Assembly: GCA_004322015.1 (NCBI GenBank)
Contig: SCQT01000101.1
Location: 1-64,000, forward strand
Length of the DNA: 64,000 nucleotides
From: Chitinophagaceae bacterium
GTDB taxonomy: Bacteria; Bacteroidota; Bacteroidia; Chitinophagales; Chitinophagaceae
Reading direction: 5' to 3'
Shown here: positions 33,293 through 50,212 of the stretch, one piece after another
Position numbering within the stretch: position 1 is the stretch's first letter
How the letters are laid out: every line of letters begins with the position of its first letter
Notes under the pieces: model-generated
Databases searched by the model: none
Told to the model about the DNA's origin: nothing
Seen by the model: the letters and a program-made list of their open reading frames with translations, nothing else
Made by a program: the position numbers and the translations under genes

Positions 33293-33703
33293 TTAAACTA
33301 CTATTCCTTCCTTATCATCGTCATTTAATCGCTTATTTACCAAAGCCTTCAAATCCTCCTCAATCAAGCGGGGAACCTTCTTCTGTTGTTCTCCCAAAAC
33401 CATCGAAATAGCCTCTAACAGTACATCAACCTTAACATCAATCTTTCTCAAAGAATCTCCCAGTTCAACCGTCGCAAAGCCACTTTGTGAAAGATCCTTT
33501 TTCTTGAGGTCAGAAGAAGAAATACCGAACATTTTGGCAATAATATTTAGCGTCTCTGGTTCTGGATCATTTCTACCAATGCGCCAATTACTTACACTTT
33601 GGACCTGAACCCTCGTTGCTTCCGCCAATTTTCTATTCTGCATTCCTGCGTTTGTCATCAAAAAATCTAAATTTTTTGAAAAGAGACTGCGCTCCTTTTT
33701 CAT
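33293..33703 (-). CDS. phage repressor, XRE-family HTH
   Basis: A 136-residue protein. Residues 8-62 are an XRE helix-turn-helix (NLDFLMTNAGMQNRKLAEAT, then QVQSVSNWRIGRNDPEPETL). The C-terminal half is helical (SLRKIDVKVDVLLEAISMVL) and probably mediates oligomerisation. There is no peptidase S24 domain, so induction would not be by RecA-stimulated self-cleavage. It is divergent from the Cro-like gene across a 122-bp switch region, the usual lysogeny switch layout. Confidence 0.8.
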   Translation of the reverse strand: MKKERSLFSKNLDFLMTNAGMQNRKLAEATRVQVQSVSNWRIGRNDPEPETLNIIAKMFGISSSDLKKKDLSQSGFATVELGDSLRKIDVKVDVLLEAISMVLGEQQKKVPRLIEEDLKALVNKRLNDDDKEGIVV

Positions 33704-39194: not shown

Positions 39195-39980
39195 ATGGAA
39201 ACAAAAAAAATCAAACTACAAATTAAAAACCGGTGGACCAGATCTGTTTTGTTTGAATATGAAAAAGAAGACAACACAATTGCGAAAACTCTAAAGCAGG
39301 CGGTTGCTTCATTCGCGCCCCTGCGTGGCGCGGACCTGAGTGGCGCGGCCCTGCGTGGCGCGGACCTGCGTGACACGGACCTGAGTGACACGGACCTGCG
39401 TGGCGCGGACCTGCGTGGCGCGGACCTGCGTGACACGGACCTGAGTGACACGGCCCTGCGTGGCGCGGAACTGCGTGGCGCGGACCTGCGTGACACGGAC
39501 CTGCGTGGCGCGGACCTGCGTGACACGGACCTGCGTGGCGCGGAACTGCGTGGCGCGGACCTGCGTGACACGGACCTGCGTGGCGCGGACCTGAGTGGCG
39601 CGGCCCTGCGTGACACGGCCCTGCGTGGCGCGGAACTGCGTGGCGCGGAACTAGAGCCGATAAAGAACGATATGTTTATCGTTTTACTCCATTCCGTTCC
39701 CGAAATCGCAGCGCTTAAAAAAGCAATTCTGAATGGTAAAATAGACGGATCTACCTATTCTGGAGAATGCTGCTGTCTTTCTGGTACGGTTTGCAAAAAT
39801 GCTCCAACCGTTCTGGACGAACAGCGCGCCTTGCGTGTACGCAGAGCAAGCCGTCCAATAGAACGATTCTTTTTAGGTATAAAACCAGGTGACACGCCTG
39901 ATACAAACCAGTTTGCAAAACTCGCATCGGAATGGATCGAAGAATTTGAGCAATTACTCAATACAAATACTAAACACTAA
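39195..39980 (+). CDS. pentapeptide-repeat protein with conserved C-terminal domain
   Basis: 261 residues. After 40 residues comes a block of about 22 pentapeptides (LRGAD, LRDTD, LSGAA and similar), which would form a right-handed quadrilateral beta-helix. A C-terminal domain with DGSTYSGECCCLSGTVC follows, a Cys-rich region seen in phage pentapeptide proteins. The repeat DNA is GC-rich and almost perfectly periodic at 15 bp. Some members mimic DNA or block gyrase; no target is evident here. Confidence 0.75.
   Translation: METKKIKLQIKNRWTRSVLFEYEKEDNTIAKTLKQAVASFAPLRGADLSGAALRGADLRDTDLSDTDLRGADLRGADLRDTDLSDTALRGAELRGADLRDTDLRGADLRDTDLRGAELRGADLRDTDLRGADLSGAALRDTALRGAELRGAELEPIKNDMFIVLLHSVPEIAALKKAILNGKIDGSTYSGECCCLSGTVCKNAPTVLDEQRALRVRRASRPIERFFLGIKPGDTPDTNQFAKLASEWIEEFEQLLNTNTKH
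39321..39652 (+). repeat. 15-bp tandem repeat array encoding pentapeptides
   Basis: About 22 units built from CTGCGTGGCGCGGAC and variants CTGCGTGACACGGAC and CTGAGTGACACGGAC. The base composition (mostly G and C) stands out from the surrounding AT-richer phage DNA. The units differ by only a few alternative bases, suggesting recent expansion by slippage or recombination. Confidence 0.9.
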
Positions 39981-42681: not shown

Positions 42682-43527
42682 ATGAAAGAATTACTTCAGT
42701 CGGAACTACAGTTTAATAGCGATTCTGCTGCTCATATTCAGCAGGTCAGCCCCACTTGCCCAAAACCGATTGTTAGCCGCTGCAATCTTTGGAACGGGGA
42801 CTGTCTGGAACTAATGTCTCAAATCCCTGCGGCAAGTATTGATATGATTTTTGCAGATTTGCCCTATGGCACTACCGCGTGTGACTGGGATATAAAAATT
42901 CCCTTAGACGCACTATGGCATCATTGGAACCGTATAATTAAAGATAGTGCAGCCGTTATATTAACGGGACAACAGCCTTTTACAACTGATATTATTAACA
43001 GTAATAGAAAACATTTTCGTTACGAAATAATTTGGGAAAAGACAATGAAACTCGGTTTTTTCAACGCAAACAAGATGCCACTACGAGGGCATGAGAATAT
43101 AATTGTTTTTTATAAAAAGCTACCTACTTACAATCCTCAAAAGACTTACAACCCAAGTCAAGCAACCGGCAGGGTGAGAGAAAAAAAAGCAGCAAGATAT
43201 AAGGCTTATAGCCCAACGAATGCACAGGATTATGTAGAAACCGGATGGAAATACCCTCATTCTGTAATAAGGATTAGCAACTGGAATGGCGCCTTATTTG
43301 GCAATAATTCAAAAGCGACAAAGCACCCAACTCAAAAGCCTGTTGAATTACTGGATTGGCTGATTAAAACATATACGAATGAAGGTGACACTGTACTTGA
43401 TTGTGTGATGGGAAGCGGAACAACCGGCGTGAGTTGCAAGAAAAACAATCGTCACTTTATAGGAATTGAAAAAGAAAAGTCGTTTTATGACGTCGCTGTT
43501 AGCAGAGTGTCGTCATGTAGCGGCTAA
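42682..43527 (+). CDS. DNA adenine/cytosine N-methyltransferase (beta class)
   Basis: 281 residues with the catalytic motif IV DLPYG (59-63), target-recognition-like middle region and, later, HPTQKPVELLDW plus the AdoMet loop DCVMGSGTTG. The order IV before I defines beta-class amino-methyltransferases. Modification of phage DNA against host restriction is the usual role; no nuclease partner is adjacent. The first about 30 codons precede an attC-like half site (42765-42783) and may be a fused foreign N-terminus. The stop codon lies inside another inverted repeat. Confidence 0.85.
   Translation: MKELLQSELQFNSDSAAHIQQVSPTCPKPIVSRCNLWNGDCLELMSQIPAASIDMIFADLPYGTTACDWDIKIPLDALWHHWNRIIKDSAAVILTGQQPFTTDIINSNRKHFRYEIIWEKTMKLGFFNANKMPLRGHENIIVFYKKLPTYNPQKTYNPSQATGRVREKKAARYKAYSPTNAQDYVETGWKYPHSVIRISNWNGALFGNNSKATKHPTQKPVELLDWLIKTYTNEGDTVLDCVMGSGTTGVSCKKNNRHFIGIEKEKSFYDVAVSRVSSCSG
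42765..42783 (+). repeat. attC-like right half before methyltransferase core
   Basis: ACCGATTGTTAGCCGCTGC is an imperfect inverted match (15 of 19) to 43517-43535. The bases before it, GTCAGCCCCACTTGCC, align with GTCAGCCCACATATTGCC at 43619-43636. Both could be right halves of related recombination sites. Confidence 0.45.
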
Positions 43528-44597: not shown

Positions 44598-44674
44598 TTT
44601 GTATTGGAAATCACATAACAGACGTTCGCTGTGAAAGGCTTATGCATGGTCCGATTCCGTGCTGTGATTCTTGA
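44594..44674 (+). CDS. possible 26-residue microprotein
   Basis: ATGA overlap with the preceding gene and a frame MICIGNHITDVRCERLMHGP ending in a Cys pair, 18 nt before the primase/helicase gene. It may be a real coupled microprotein or chance. Confidence 0.25.
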   Translation: MICIGNHITDVRCERLMHGPIPCCDS

Positions 44675-44692
44675 AGAAACCAAAAGCATTCA

Positions 44693-46903
44693 ATGACCCA
44701 AATAATTTCCATATATCGTGACGTATCAACGACCAAAACGACCGAGACCATCGAGGTCCAAAATTTCCTTGATGCTATAAAATCGGGTTACTGGCAAGAT
44801 GTAGTATTACCGATACGTGCAGAACGTGACGAAGAAAAGCAAAAGGCTATGAAACGGCATGCGCCGTTGGTTACCATTTCCGGCGTTTTCAATCACCGCA
44901 GGGACAGCGACCTGAAAAAGCACTCAGGCCTTATCGCGATTGACATTGATCACCTGAACGAACGGCTTGAAGAATACCGGCGTAACCTGGCATCTGACCG
45001 TTATTGCTTTGCTCTTTTTTCGAGCATCAGGGGAAACGGTCTTTGCATGATCTTTAAAATTGACGGAGCAAGGCATAGAGATGCGTTTACAGCCATTTCA
45101 GCCTATCTATTGCAGGAGTATGATATCGTCGTTGATTCAGCCTGTGTGAACGAATCACGGGCCAGATTCGTATCGTATGACCCTTATCTTATCCAAAACG
45201 ACGAGGCACAGATATTTAAGAAGTATCTGCCCAAGGAAAAAAAACGCAAACTACCGCCACCAATTGTAGTAAAGAACGACTTTGACGAAATGGTCAACCG
45301 GATGGTTGAACAACACGTAAACTGCACGGACGACTACCGCGACTGGCTCCGCGTGTGTTTCGGAATAGCCAGCTATTTCGGCGAGAGCGGCCGGGATTAT
45401 TTCCATCGTCTCAGCTCTATATCGGGAAAATACGATTCTAAAGTTTGCGAAAAAATTTACACCCGGGCCATACGCGGATCCGGATCGCAAAACAGGTCCA
45501 GCATCGCGACCATTTACTGGTTTGCAAAACAGGCCGGCATTCCTATTTATACCCATAGGACGAAGCAAATCATTCGAGATGCGACAAGCCAGAAAAAGAG
45601 CGGTATAACCAATGCGGGTGCCATCGCTATCAATTTACAGCAGTTCGGAGGTATCGCTGAATCTGAAAGCCTGGACATCATTGCGCAAGTCCTTTCTAAT
45701 AATATAGCTCCCAACGAGTCTGGCGAAAACCTGGTTTCTGATATTGCCGCTTTTCTGGTACCTTATCAATTGCGCCGCAATCTCATTACCCGCAATATAG
45801 AGATGCGAGGTGAACCCATCAATGACCAGGACATCAACAGCATATTTTTAGACACCAAAATAGTTTACGATAATGCTACAAAAGACTTGGTTACCTCCAT
45901 CATTTTCTCCAACAGAGTGCCGTCTTACAACCCGATTCATGAATTTTTTAAGGAGGAAGCTGATGTAATAAGGGAAAATCAGCCTAATCTTCAGCTACTA
46001 CTTAAATCAATAGATACCGATACTCCGAATGCTGAAAAATGGATCACTAAATGGCTTGTTTCGCTTGTTGCTGCCGCTTACGGCAAGCACAGCCCTTTAG
46101 TCCTTGTGCTTGCTGGCGAAATACATGGAAAGGGTAAAACGGAATGGTTCAGGCGCCTCCTTCCTGACAGGCTAAAGGACCTGTACGGTGAAAGCCGGCT
46201 TGACGCGGGTAAGGACGATGAAATCCTTCTCACGAAAAAATGGATTATCATGGATGATGAATTTGAAGGCAAGAGCAAGCAGGAAGCCAAGCACCTTAAA
46301 GGCATCACTTCCAAACAAGTGATCTCCGTCCGGGAGCCATACGGACGCGTGCACGTAGATTTAAAGCGTCTGGCGGTTCTCTGCGGCACCAGCAATGACC
46401 TCCAGATTCTCAATGACCCCACAGGGAACCGGCGCATTATACCCGTTCACGTAAATGCAGTCAACTTCGACCTGTACAATTCCTGCGATAAAGAAGAGTT
46501 GTTACGGGAGCTTTATTCGATGTATCAGAATGGTTACGATTACCACATTCTTGGAAGTGAAGTTGAGATATTTAACGAAAATACGAACGTATTCAAGCAG
46601 TCCACGCCGGAAGAGGAGTTGATATTGACCAAATTACAAAAAGGAGTTGAAAGCGACAATAGAAGCGAATGGCTTACTATTACCCAAATCGTTCAATATC
46701 TAATCCAGGACACCAAGATTACCAGGATGAGCAATACAAAAGTCGGGATGCTGTTAACGAAGTTGGGGTTTGAGAAAATAAGAATGAAACTCGCAGGAAA
46801 TGCAGTAACTGCATATCATGTAATTTGTTATAAGCCAACTGAGCAGCAACAATATTATAATCAATTATCACACGGTTATAAAAGCGAGGAACTCCCTTTT
46901 TGA
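44693..46903 (+). CDS. primase/helicase, VirE-type replication protein
   Basis: 736 residues in three parts. An N-terminal VirE/BT4734-like domain (HSGLIAIDIDHLNERLEE, FALFSSIRGNGLCMIFKI) is followed by a primase C-terminal-2-like middle (DDYRDWLRVCFGIASYFGES). The C-terminal VirE-type P-loop ATPase has Walker A GEIHGKGKTEW, Walker B WIIMDDEFEG and sensor-like VLCGTSNDLQILNDPTGNRR. Such proteins prime and unwind phage or island origins. The gene lies immediately before an iteron array. Confidence 0.88.
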   Translation: MTQIISIYRDVSTTKTTETIEVQNFLDAIKSGYWQDVVLPIRAERDEEKQKAMKRHAPLVTISGVFNHRRDSDLKKHSGLIAIDIDHLNERLEEYRRNLASDRYCFALFSSIRGNGLCMIFKIDGARHRDAFTAISAYLLQEYDIVVDSACVNESRARFVSYDPYLIQNDEAQIFKKYLPKEKKRKLPPPIVVKNDFDEMVNRMVEQHVNCTDDYRDWLRVCFGIASYFGESGRDYFHRLSSISGKYDSKVCEKIYTRAIRGSGSQNRSSIATIYWFAKQAGIPIYTHRTKQIIRDATSQKKSGITNAGAIAINLQQFGGIAESESLDIIAQVLSNNIAPNESGENLVSDIAAFLVPYQLRRNLITRNIEMRGEPINDQDINSIFLDTKIVYDNATKDLVTSIIFSNRVPSYNPIHEFFKEEADVIRENQPNLQLLLKSIDTDTPNAEKWITKWLVSLVAAAYGKHSPLVLVLAGEIHGKGKTEWFRRLLPDRLKDLYGESRLDAGKDDEILLTKKWIIMDDEFEGKSKQEAKHLKGITSKQVISVREPYGRVHVDLKRLAVLCGTSNDLQILNDPTGNRRIIPVHVNAVNFDLYNSCDKEELLRELYSMYQNGYDYHILGSEVEIFNENTNVFKQSTPEEELILTKLQKGVESDNRSEWLTITQIVQYLIQDTKITRMSNTKVGMLLTKLGFEKIRMKLAGNAVTAYHVICYKPTEQQQYYNQLSHGYKSEELPF

Positions 46904-46904
46904 T

Positions 46905-47179
46905 AGTTGCAAGGTTGCAACTTTGGTTGCATGATTAAAAAAATAAGGATGCAACCTTTAAGCTATTGATATATAATAATATATAATTACGGTTGCAAGG
47001 TTGCAACCTAAGAAGTAAATATTTAACAGAAAATGAAATGATAAAACCCCAGATACGCAATTTTATATATTTTTTTCGGGGACCTAACACGTTTTTGCAT
47101 ACAAGGTTGCAACCGATATGCAAAATATTATTAATCAAATTGATAGAGGTGCAACCTTATTTCGTCGAGGGTTGCAACC
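46905..47179 (+). repeat. GGTTGCAACC iteron array, candidate replication origin
   Basis: Nine full or partial copies of the self-palindromic decamer GGTTGCAACC: 46905-46912, 46913-46921, 46925-46931, 46948-46956 (one mismatch), 46991-46998, 46999-47008, 47105-47114, 47148-47156 (one base short) and 47170-47179. The intervening DNA is very AT-rich (TATATAATAATATATAATTA near 46969). It lies between the primase/helicase and VRR-NUC genes. Alternative: a multi-site operator. Confidence 0.65.
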
Positions 47180-47192
47180 GAATATATTTACA

Positions 47193-47654
47193 ATGAAAAA
47201 CCACCCATTTTATCCCATTCAAGATGCTCCAACAGGGCAAGATTTAAACGCCTCCGAATCCAAGCTGCAGTCCGAAATGTTCCTCTGGGCCTGGAACACC
47301 TACCCCCAGTACCGGAGGATGTTATTCCACATTAACAACAAAGCCAGGAATGCCGTAGAAGGAAATAAGTTCAAAGCAATGGGGGTAGTTCGTGGACCCT
47401 CGGATCTCGCATTACTCGCCCCGGGCGGTCGGACCATCTGGATCGAGGTTAAAGTTCCCGAAATAGGCGAGCTGCAGGCTGCCGAGTTTGGAATCGCTCC
47501 CCGGGCAGAGGGAAAGCAATCCGAAGAGCAGGAAGATTTCCAGCGCAAAGCTGAAGCCTGGGGGCACACATATGTTATTGTCGAGAGGATGGAGGAATTT
47601 CAGGAGGTGGTGAAGGAGTATTGGGGAGCGCCTGTTTCGTTCGGGAGGGTTTAA
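47193..47654 (+). CDS. VRR-NUC domain nuclease
   Basis: 153 residues from the ATG at 47193 (an upstream ATG at 47118 would translate through two iterons). The core has RNAVEGNKFKAMGVVRGPSD, then TIWIEVKVPE (catalytic E-x-K) and QEDFQRKAEAWGHTYVIV. VRR-NUC proteins are PD-(D/E)XK nucleases common in phages, often resolving branched DNA. Confidence 0.85.
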   Translation: MKNHPFYPIQDAPTGQDLNASESKLQSEMFLWAWNTYPQYRRMLFHINNKARNAVEGNKFKAMGVVRGPSDLALLAPGGRTIWIEVKVPEIGELQAAEFGIAPRAEGKQSEEQEDFQRKAEAWGHTYVIVERMEEFQEVVKEYWGAPVSFGRV

Positions 47655-47660
47655 AAGGAA

Positions 47661-47688
47661 GAGGCATCAGCGAGAATACTGACGCCTC
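47661..47688 (-). terminator. terminator between convergent VRR-NUC and XRE genes
   Basis: GAGGCATCAG and CTGACGCCTC pair (9 of 10) around an 8-nt loop. On the minus strand it is followed by TTCCTTTT, so it should end the minus-strand transcript. Confidence 0.55.
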
Positions 47689-47701
47689 ACGGGCATTTAG
47701 C

Positions 47702-47959
47702 TTAGTTATAGTTTCGGGTTCCGGCGATAAATTCGGTGCTCTCTTTCTTATTCTTCACGAAAGTGATTTTGCAAGTCAATCCGAGCGCATCACAAAATCT
47801 GACAATTGAGACGATTGTCAGATTTTCGGTACCAGATTCGATTTTTTGAATCCGGCGAAGCGAGACTTCCATCCGTTCTGCTATTTCCCGCGCCGTCAAA
47901 CCCTCTTTTTTTCGAAGGGATCGGAGGTCGGAGGCTGTCTTGATTTTTAATGTGCTCAT
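47702..47959 (-). CDS. XRE-family HTH regulator
   Basis: 85 residues, helix-turn-helix at about 12-62 (LRKKEGLTAREIAERMEVSL, then IQKIESGTENLTI). Opposite in direction to its neighbours, it resembles an antitoxin/late-gene regulator. Its ATG overlaps the stop of the small upstream frame (ATGA). Confidence 0.75.
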   Translation of the reverse strand: MSTLKIKTASDLRSLRKKEGLTAREIAERMEVSLRRIQKIESGTENLTIVSIVRFCDALGLTCKITFVKNKKESTEFIAGTRNYN

Positions 47960-48063
47960 TCTTCAACAATTTCGTAAAATGAATAACTCCCGTCAGTGTG
48001 ATTTATATAAGTACGCTTTCCAAATTTATTTTCTATTTTTTTAAAGATTTCGTACGCCGTCAA
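47956..48063 (-). CDS. possible 35-residue partner of the XRE gene
   Basis: TTG start, product MTAYEIFKKIENKFGKRTYI and ending in SYSFYEIVEE. It overlaps the XRE gene by 4 nt. The aromatic beta-like pattern could be the tail of a larger HigB/RelE-like partner: a TAA stop two codons upstream of the TTG ends the frame. It is either a microprotein or the remnant of a toxin. Confidence 0.35.
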   Translation of the reverse strand: MTAYEIFKKIENKFGKRTYINHTDGSYSFYEIVEE

Positions 48064-48209
48064 AAATTAGCCTGCGAAATGAATAAAAGGCAATAAAGCT
48101 GCGTTTTAATAAATAATAATCAACGAACTAACAATAACTTATTCCAGAGAAAAAATACTAATTTTTTCCGCCCCGAAACTAAATTTTGTAGTTATAAATA
48201 AAATCTATA

Positions 48210-48217
48210 TATATTTG
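48210..48217 (+). promoter_or_regulatory. late promoter -7 element before terminase genes
   Basis: TATATTTG matches TAnnTTTG with TTTTG upstream, 44 nt before the terminase small subunit start. It would drive the packaging/head operon. Confidence 0.55.
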
Positions 48218-48260
48218 CAAAGAAATAGATTTTTCTAATGGCAGCAAAGCAGCAATTTAA

Positions 48261-48767
48261 ATGACGGCAAAGCAAGAACGATTTTGCATAGAATATTTGA
48301 AGGACCAGAACGCGAAACAAGCGCTCATCCGGGCGGGCTATAGTAAAAACGGTGCGGCTCAAACGGCCCATAACACTCTTCAAGTCCCAGATGTCGCTGC
48401 TTACATCACTAAAGAATTAGGTGAAAGAAAGAAAAGGGCAGAGTTGACAAAGGACAAGGTGATTGAAGAAATCAAGAAGATTGCCTTTTCTAATATTAAA
48501 GATTTTGTAAACGGCGGAAATACAATTCTGGAGCTGAAATGCTTAGATGCAGAGAAAACAGCCGCGGTGCAGGGCGTTAAGACACAAACAGTTACAGTAA
48601 AGGATCAGACCTTCATAAATCAAGAAATTAAACTATATAATAAGTTGGACGCTTTGGAAAAATTAGCTAAACATTTAGGACTGTACGAGGAAGATAACCG
48701 GCAACGGAGCGTGATCAAGGTGGGATTTGAGGATGAAGAGGCGCCAGACGAGCAGGAGGAAGAATAA
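48261..48767 (+). CDS. terminase small subunit
   Basis: 168 residues: MTAKQERFCIEYLKDQNAKQ with helix-turn-helix ALIRAGYSKNGAAQTAHNTL is the classical terminase small subunit start. Then come a helical middle and an acidic C-terminus (EDEEAPDEQEEE). It recognises phage DNA for packaging. Its stop overlaps the large subunit start by 1 nt. A duplicated start region lies just upstream. Confidence 0.88.
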   Translation: MTAKQERFCIEYLKDQNAKQALIRAGYSKNGAAQTAHNTLQVPDVAAYITKELGERKKRAELTKDKVIEEIKKIAFSNIKDFVNGGNTILELKCLDAEKTAAVQGVKTQTVTVKDQTFINQEIKLYNKLDALEKLAKHLGLYEEDNRQRSVIKVGFEDEEAPDEQEEE

Positions 48768-50212
48768 TGCAGGAATATATCTTTTCAAAAAAGTTGTTCA
48801 ATCCGCTGTTCTGGATTTTGTTAAAAGCTATCAATAACGAAAAAATTCGTTATATTTTCATTTTCGGTGGGAGTTCGGCGGCTAAGACTTATACTATCGC
48901 TCAACTTCTTACGTATCAAGCACTGAAAGAAAGACACAGCGCTATTATTTTAAGAAAATTCAGTGTGGATATAGAGGATTCGGTTTGGGCAGATTTTAGG
49001 GAGATAAACGAAAAACTTAGGTTAAAACAAGTTACAACGACTATAAAGCGACACATACGGTACTTAAACGGCGCTCAGCAACGTTTCCGTGGCTTAGATC
49101 AAGCGGAGCGGCTTAAAGGACTTAAAGGTTTCATGTATCTTTACTACAACGAGCTTTCGATGTTTGGCTACGATGATTTCCGCCAAGGGCGCAAAAGGTT
49201 GCGCGGGATGGCCGGGCAAAAAATAATAGCAGACTGGAACCCAATTTCGGACCAGCACTTCATAAAAAAAGATGTGATTGACAACGAAACTTGGACTGAT
49301 GTGTCGCATAATCTCGATGTAACTAATTCTTTCGTTAGAGTAAATGCAAGCGGCAACATGCTGCTAATTAAAACGACGTTCAAGGATAATTTTTGGGTGG
49401 TTGGCAGACCGGGCGGCGGCGGCTTCGTGGACCAGCACGTTCTGGACGACTACGAATACGACAGAGTGCATCATTACAACGATTACCGGATTTATGCGCT
49501 TGGAGAATATGGCCGGCTCAGGACCGGCGGCGAGTTTTGGAAGTCGTTCAACGAATCTCAGCATGTGCGAGTGCTCAGCTACGACGATAAGAACAGCCTC
49601 CACGTAAGTTTAGACAACAATGTACAACCTTACGTAACCTGCTCAGTCTGGCAGATAGACACGTCAGAGAAAAAGATTAAGCAGACTCACGAAATCGCAG
49701 CCAAAAGCCCAGACAACAATGCACCCAGAGCAGCGCGTTTGCTTGTAACATATTTAAAAAAGATTGAATATAAGGATGTGCTTTTCGTCTATGGGGATCC
49801 GTCCGCCTCGGCACGCAGTACGATAGACGCAGACAGTGCAAGCTTTTACGACAAATATTTAGCAGAGCTGCGTGCAGCCGGGTTTGCAATTCGAAACCGC
49901 GTGCAACGCAGCGCTCCAGAGGTTGCCCGGTCAGGCGACTTCATTAACGAAATTTATGCAAACAATTACGGAGGCTGGAGTATTGAGATAGACCAACGTT
50001 GCCGCATCAGCATAGATGACTACTGTGAAGCGAAAGAGGACAAAGACGGTAAGATTTTAAAAAAGCGGGTGACGGATAAGGAAACCGGAACCAGCTATGA
50101 GGAACACGGTCACTTTTCCGATGCAAAGCGATATTTTATAACTACGATTTTAGCCGCTGAGTTCAAAAAGTTCAAATCCACTCGCTCAAAATATAAAATT
50201 ACTTACTCATAA
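48767..50212 (+). CDS. terminase large subunit
   Basis: 481 residues: ATPase with the P-loop FGGSSAAKT (34-41), Walker-B region MYLYYNELSMF, and ADWNP. The C-terminal nuclease domain carries FVYGDPSASARSTID and GHFSDAKRYFI (acidic metal ligands). It translocates DNA into proheads and cuts it. The length fits phage large terminases. Confidence 0.9.
   Translation: MQEYIFSKKLFNPLFWILLKAINNEKIRYIFIFGGSSAAKTYTIAQLLTYQALKERHSAIILRKFSVDIEDSVWADFREINEKLRLKQVTTTIKRHIRYLNGAQQRFRGLDQAERLKGLKGFMYLYYNELSMFGYDDFRQGRKRLRGMAGQKIIADWNPISDQHFIKKDVIDNETWTDVSHNLDVTNSFVRVNASGNMLLIKTTFKDNFWVVGRPGGGGFVDQHVLDDYEYDRVHHYNDYRIYALGEYGRLRTGGEFWKSFNESQHVRVLSYDDKNSLHVSLDNNVQPYVTCSVWQIDTSEKKIKQTHEIAAKSPDNNAPRAARLLVTYLKKIEYKDVLFVYGDPSASARSTIDADSASFYDKYLAELRAAGFAIRNRVQRSAPEVARSGDFINEIYANNYGGWSIEIDQRCRISIDDYCEAKEDKDGKILKKRVTDKETGTSYEEHGHFSDAKRYFITTILAAEFKKFKSTRSKYKITYS

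Follow-up and report, generated by a model that had tools for sequence, protein, structure and literature searches.

The 290 bp that directly follow the primase-helicase gene of an integrated phage (positions 46904 to 47193 of the window, the whole 64,000-nucleotide stretch of Chitinophagaceae DNA analyzed here) are likely to be the replication origin of this phage, recognized and opened by its own primase-helicase. In the proposed mechanism, two groups of short sites flank the AT-rich spacer of the origin, and the primase-helicase encoded immediately upstream would recognize these sites via its C-terminal winged helix, chiefly through the wing hairpin. By analogy with the Rep proteins of SaPIs and PICIs, the enzyme would then assemble around the DNA and open the AT-rich spacer, and its own primase domain would prime synthesis; we infer both the binding and the firing of the origin. 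An earlier, sequence-only reading had already named this region a likely phage replication origin, and the assignment now draws indirect support from where the region lies and how it is built, from its conservation among relatives and from its co-variation with an initiator-type neighbor.

The proposed initiator is a protein of 736 amino acids encoded on the forward strand (44693 to 46903). It combines a BT4734-like N-terminal domain, a PriCT-2 domain and a VapE-like domain (PF08800, PF08707 and PF05272) and matches phrog_15962, a DNA primase. The same genome encodes a second, distant relative of its N-terminal part (G000:C231:4761-5294; 33% identity, E 3e-19). Beyond the array, the forward strand carries a VRR-NUC-like nuclease gene (47194 to 47654) that matches phrog_824 and phrog_93 without a Pfam match; its counterparts are annotated VRR-NUC in phages phi46:1, P12024S and mumin6-4, and a pattern search of viral contigs found no relatives of it. 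Of two candidate start codons, 47194 was chosen, since the longer frame opened by 47118 would cross two sites of the array. Farther downstream are the gene of the terminase large subunit (48767 to 50212) and those of the portal and tape measure proteins. Satellites borrow the structural genes of a helper; since terminase, portal and tape measure are all encoded here, the element is a phage and not a satellite. Between the nuclease and terminase genes, a small gene on the opposite strand (47702 to 47959) encodes an HTH regulator, possibly a switch regulator, and a further HTH regulator is encoded on the same reverse strand at 33293 to 33703. The early region also contains an N6/N4 DNA methyltransferase gene (42682 to 43527).

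The site array (46905 to 47179) begins right after the primase-helicase stop codon at 46903 and reaches an AT content of 69%, against 57% for the window; its AT-rich character and its place after the gene had been described in the sequence-only reading. Counting both strands, the heptamer GGTTGCA occurs 11 times between 46904 and 47193, never exceeded 3 occurrences in 5000 dinucleotide shuffles, and totals 17 in the whole 64 kb. Among the 12 segments of 290 nt with the densest 7-mer repetition, the other 11 are all located near 39.26-39.46 kb, in a pentapeptide-repeat protein gene of the phage early region (39195 to 39980), which holds the strongest 7-mer repetition of the window. The array had been presented as nine copies of the palindrome GGTTGCAACC. 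The dense array stands, and the number nine is reached with degenerate sites included; exact decamers number three (46999, 47105 and 47170), and a fourth and last copy in the host genome is found on a different contig. The nine sites comprise a forward tandem pair AGTTGCA/GGTTGCA (46905 and 46913, ending at 46919), a forward site at 46925 to 46931, a reverse site at 46950 to 46956, a second forward tandem pair (46991 and 46999, to 47008) whose last copy ends as an exact GGTTGCAACC, an exact GGTTGCAACC of ambiguous orientation at 47105 to 47114, a reverse site at 47150 to 47156, and another exact GGTTGCAACC, equally ambiguous, at 47170 to 47179. The tandem pairs that had been reported are thus both present, with copies 8 bp apart. 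Two groups of sites, 46905-47008 and 47105-47179, flank a spacer of 96 bp (47009 to 47104; 72% AT) that would be the melting region.

GGTTGCA is intact at eight of the nine sites and the opposite half of the palindrome is degenerate at most of them. Because the heptamer count lies far above that of the shuffles, the array is real, but on sequence grounds its intact unit is a non-palindromic heptamer in mixed orientation and the palindrome appears incidental: GGTTG and CAACC would be two halves of one word that mirror each other by chance in the window phage. The palindrome was rejected as the key feature because the words of relatives, at matching positions and orientations, are largely non-palindromic and because one half drifts in the window, and the dimeric initiator or operator deduced from it is likewise not supported. 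GC skew does not turn at the array, no Rfam family indicative of an RNA element matches 44600-49000 at the gathering threshold, and promoter-like matches in 46600-47400 are no more frequent than in shuffled sequence.

Conservation of the place and layout of the array was assessed in relatives of the primase-helicase. From 252 matching loci, 242 had a stop codon, 234 of these encoded at least 600 amino acids and 228 offered 330 nt downstream; keeping one locus per identical last 350 amino acids left 148 distinct relatives, the window included. The most repeated 7-mer of the locus falls within the 300 nt after the primase-helicase stop codon in 120 of these 148, with 8 additional ties, and at least 5 copies are present in that stretch in 115 of 148, compared with 60 of 22,354 overlapping control windows. 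Eighteen relatives, including phi46:1 and P12024S, have fewer than 4 copies and no clear array in the tested stretch; mumin6-4 scored weak because an extra gene sits between its primase gene and its array. The exact decamer of the window is absent from the 36 loci other than its own that were searched for it (L005-L008 and L010-L041). What revealed the arrays was any repeated word at the same place, and the word differs: GGTTGCA, TGTTGCAGCTT, TGTTGCCACTT, TGGACAACTT, TGTATCAACTT, TGCACCACC, TGCATCA, GTTACAGATA, GTTAAGGATA and more.

The word thus varies between phages (38 different top 7-mers, corresponding to fewer distinct words because some are overlapping stretches of one site word) and the order and orientation of the sites are largely kept. 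To compare orientation, each top 7-mer present in at least 5 copies was represented by a single locus (n = 38), the first site being set to plus. At positions 1-30, 59 sites are plus and 1 is minus, an excess that is partly by construction because the first site defines plus; sites at 31-60 are mostly minus (18 against 4), those at 70-115 mostly plus (34 against 11), those at 180-240 mostly minus (47 against 14), and 241-300 is mixed (16 minus, 14 plus). In many relatives, two groups of sites surround a long AT-rich spacer. Among the 69 loci with a mechanically called start (83 examined), 27 have the nuclease start 281-293 bp from the primase stop; in the window this distance is 290 bp. Of 130 array regions, 70 contain a CA or TG repeat run of at least 8 nt, the corresponding count for control windows being 106 of 9878; the runs are mostly central (62 at positions 110-200), and 66 of the 70 read CA/AC on the coding strand. 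The window has no such run between 46904 and 47193. Among GenBank phage records, 22 cover at least 80% of the protein, all from Cellulophaga, Nonlabens and Flavobacterium phages. A scan of genome contigs returned no loci with the window protein as query, and a second scan, with A7, returned 11; a 7-mer is present in the region in 4 or more copies at 8 of these loci, and the other 3 lack an array (L378, L384 and L386). The titles of ten of the 11 name taxa such as Chitinophaga, Pedobacter, Flavobacterium or Saprospiraceae, and the remaining one (L377) is titled as a Peregrinibacteria MAG, outside Bacteroidota. Together with the phage records, these titles make a Bacteroidota host probable.

The variation of the word tracks a small part of the neighboring protein. 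Word distance was compared with residue mismatch, corrected for the distance of the helicase part, over 460 close pairs from 100 proteins. The primase column test drew on the 130 of 148 relatives with at least 4 copies and covered 289 variable columns, 249 of them in residues 1-640. The four columns that best track the word correspond to window residues 704, 695, 706 and 699. Of the ten best, 8 fall within residues 693-712, encoded at 46769 to 46828 (forward strand), which form the wing hairpin of the predicted C-terminal winged helix and the proposed site reader. When the helicase encoded upstream and the nuclease encoded downstream were added (554 columns, 70 proteins with both neighbors, 288 pairs), residue 704 still ranked first of the 554 variable columns, the best upstream-helicase column being 7th and the best nuclease column 18th; these correlations carry no simple P value because pairs share proteins, and the other columns serve as controls. 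Where the two members of a pair have different words (11 disjoint pairs), 56 of 154 wing positions and 262 of 6934 positions of the helicase part are changed; where they have the same word (31 pairs), the corresponding figures are 31 of 434 and 465 of 19,043. Two pairs of loci illustrate the pattern. L062 and L067 share 698 of 707 residues, 3 of their 9 differences are in the wing, and their words differ. Between L114 and L069 the spacers are largely common and the sites change from GTTGCA to GTTGCC, with 13 protein differences among which is a T to R change at window position 706. As far as sequence comparison can tell, this co-variation supports recognition of the sites by the C-terminal winged helix of the primase-helicase.

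For the near clade, a rule relating residues to words could be formulated. All 60 training loci, the same loci from which the rule was made, show a left half-site that agrees with residues 703-704: S-I goes with TGTTGC (17 loci), S-K with TGGAC (30), Q-K with TGCACC (4), Q-L with TGCATC (5) and S-L with TGTATC (4, two of which hold the predicted half in fewer than 3 copies). These 60 were retained from 66 near-clade loci by dropping those whose residue 704 is not I, K or L (L042, L044, L049, L050, L089 and L100). At residue 706, R occurs with CCA in 8 of 8 cases, in both the S-I and S-K backgrounds, A with CTA in the single case, and T and M pair with CA plus a further base. The rule was fixed in writing before new loci were collected. 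Seven loci on new contigs were then picked by eye: all 5 in-scope loci show the predicted left half in 6 to 9 copies, one of the other two (L285) shares its last 350 amino acids exactly with a training protein, and the second (L352) is outside the rule. On a tree of the helicase part, word and residues each change 17 times and independent pairs agree in 6 of 6 and 10 of 10 cases; for R706 they agree in 4 of 4, too few for a test. The window itself, with A704 and T706, falls outside the tested rule, and its word GGTTGCA is common to L042 and L352 (both S-T). Since changes of word accompany changes of a few wing-tip residues in many relatives, the protein seems to carry a readable origin code. 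We lean toward a modular code in which 703-704 set one half of the word and 706 the other, so that phages would shift origin specificity by few residue changes and a concerted rewriting of the array.

The fold predicted for the primase-helicase agrees with an initiator of the SaPI type. An AlphaFold2 model built on a 66-row alignment reached a mean pLDDT of 88.5 (an earlier 6-row model was poor, with pLDDT 53) and places a putative recognition helix at 681-690, followed by a two-stranded wing (695-700 and 703-712). Its top match among solved structures is PriRep1 with double-stranded DNA (7pds_A; Z 22.6, rmsd 4.4, 370 residues aligned, model residues 293-713), for which the sequence-level match covers the helicase part only. 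The SaPI5 primase-helicase also matches (7ola_A, Z 11.7, rmsd 6.0, 336 aligned; 7om0), ranking behind NrS-1 and level with primase-helicases of large DNA viruses.

In the published passages on PICIs, the origin directly follows the 3' end of rep and has an AT-rich region between two sets of iterons, an arrangement termed unique to PICIs (PMC6092414), and in those on SaPIs, Rep is described as recognizing a downstream origin via its C-terminal domain (PMC7581432). The window array shares the position immediately 3' of the gene and the two groups of sites around an AT-rich spacer. This layout and the C-terminal recognition described for SaPI Rep, together with the predicted fold match to 7pds and SaPI5, led us to read the region as a phage origin. 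The window module differs from the SaPI/PICI systems in residing in a phage with its own structural genes, in its Bacteroidota relatives, in the BT4734-like N-terminal and PriCT-2 domains, and in a positional layout of about 8 sites for which dozens of words track the wing. According to excerpts on the SCCmec helicase Cch2, its C-terminal domain, when isolated, binds direct repeats located between the helicase gene and the one that follows (PMC7581432), an arrangement like that proposed for the window, but with three AAGTG iterons, a separate primase-polymerase and a non-phage element. The archaeal plasmid pRN1 likewise has a replication region downstream of its replication protein, its minimal replicon being described as requiring a 166-bp stretch that follows the replication operon (PMC4234260). 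More distant VapE-type helicases (24-29% identity) in gamma and human-gut phage records (L278-L280) show by eye no array 3' of the gene. In lambda-type origins the iterons are within the initiator coding sequence, whereas the window array lies after the stop codon and so departs from that type. In Leuconostoc phage Ln-9, where the examined stretch covers the upstream side of the helicase gene (L277:1800-2250), repeats such as ggttacacacc and gaggtgtaacc are visible by eye beside a long AT tract.

Other functions of the array have to be weighed. The sites could be solely operators through which the primase-helicase or a phage repressor controls late genes together with those of the nuclease and terminase. 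Only 14 bp separate the end of the last site from the likely nuclease start codon and the two HTH regulator genes could supply a repressor, yet the words track the primase wing, the long AT-rich spacer separates two site groups in many relatives, and promoter-like matches do not exceed those of shuffles; we consider a purely operator role unlikely. A dual role, with the origin sites also acting as operator of the downstream gene, fits the data. A still less probable possibility is that another phage protein binds the array, for instance the small subunit of the terminase, whose gene lies about 1 kb downstream, at a pac or cos packaging site. The terminase large subunit gene is close and repeat arrays near terminase genes occur in other phages, but the primase wing accounts well for the words.

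It could also be argued that word and wing travel together merely as neighbors swapped in one recombination block, the wing having no reading role. The wing codons are about 77-136 bp from the first site, and L062 and L067 are strongly divergent in DNA sequence throughout the array, with silent changes accompanying those in the wing. Such a block swap would not easily explain why the sites of L114 and L069 change together between largely shared spacers, why the nuclease on the other flank gives so little signal, why separate branches show the same pairing of residues and word, or why R706 goes with CCA in two backgrounds, and we judge it quite improbable, about on a par with the packaging site. 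Recognition of an origin by the primase-helicase is the reading retained.

This proposed type of origin is found in the window phage and many relatives, and no description of it in Bacteroidota phages was found among the open-licence papers searched. The natural series of variants combines many words with a mostly conserved layout and with a wing rule that held in a small set of new loci, and it opens the specificity of initiators for their origins, and the evolution of that specificity, to direct testing. For uncultured Bacteroidota phages, it may assist in finding origins and in foreseeing which phages compete for replication; if the wing code holds, origin words would define replication incompatibility groups predictable from protein sequence. 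One viral contig of 40 kb (IMGVR_UViG_3300008259_000070) carries two primase-plus-array copies near both ends (L075 and L113), with slightly different arrays, which could represent a pair of origins, two different phages or an effect of the assembly.
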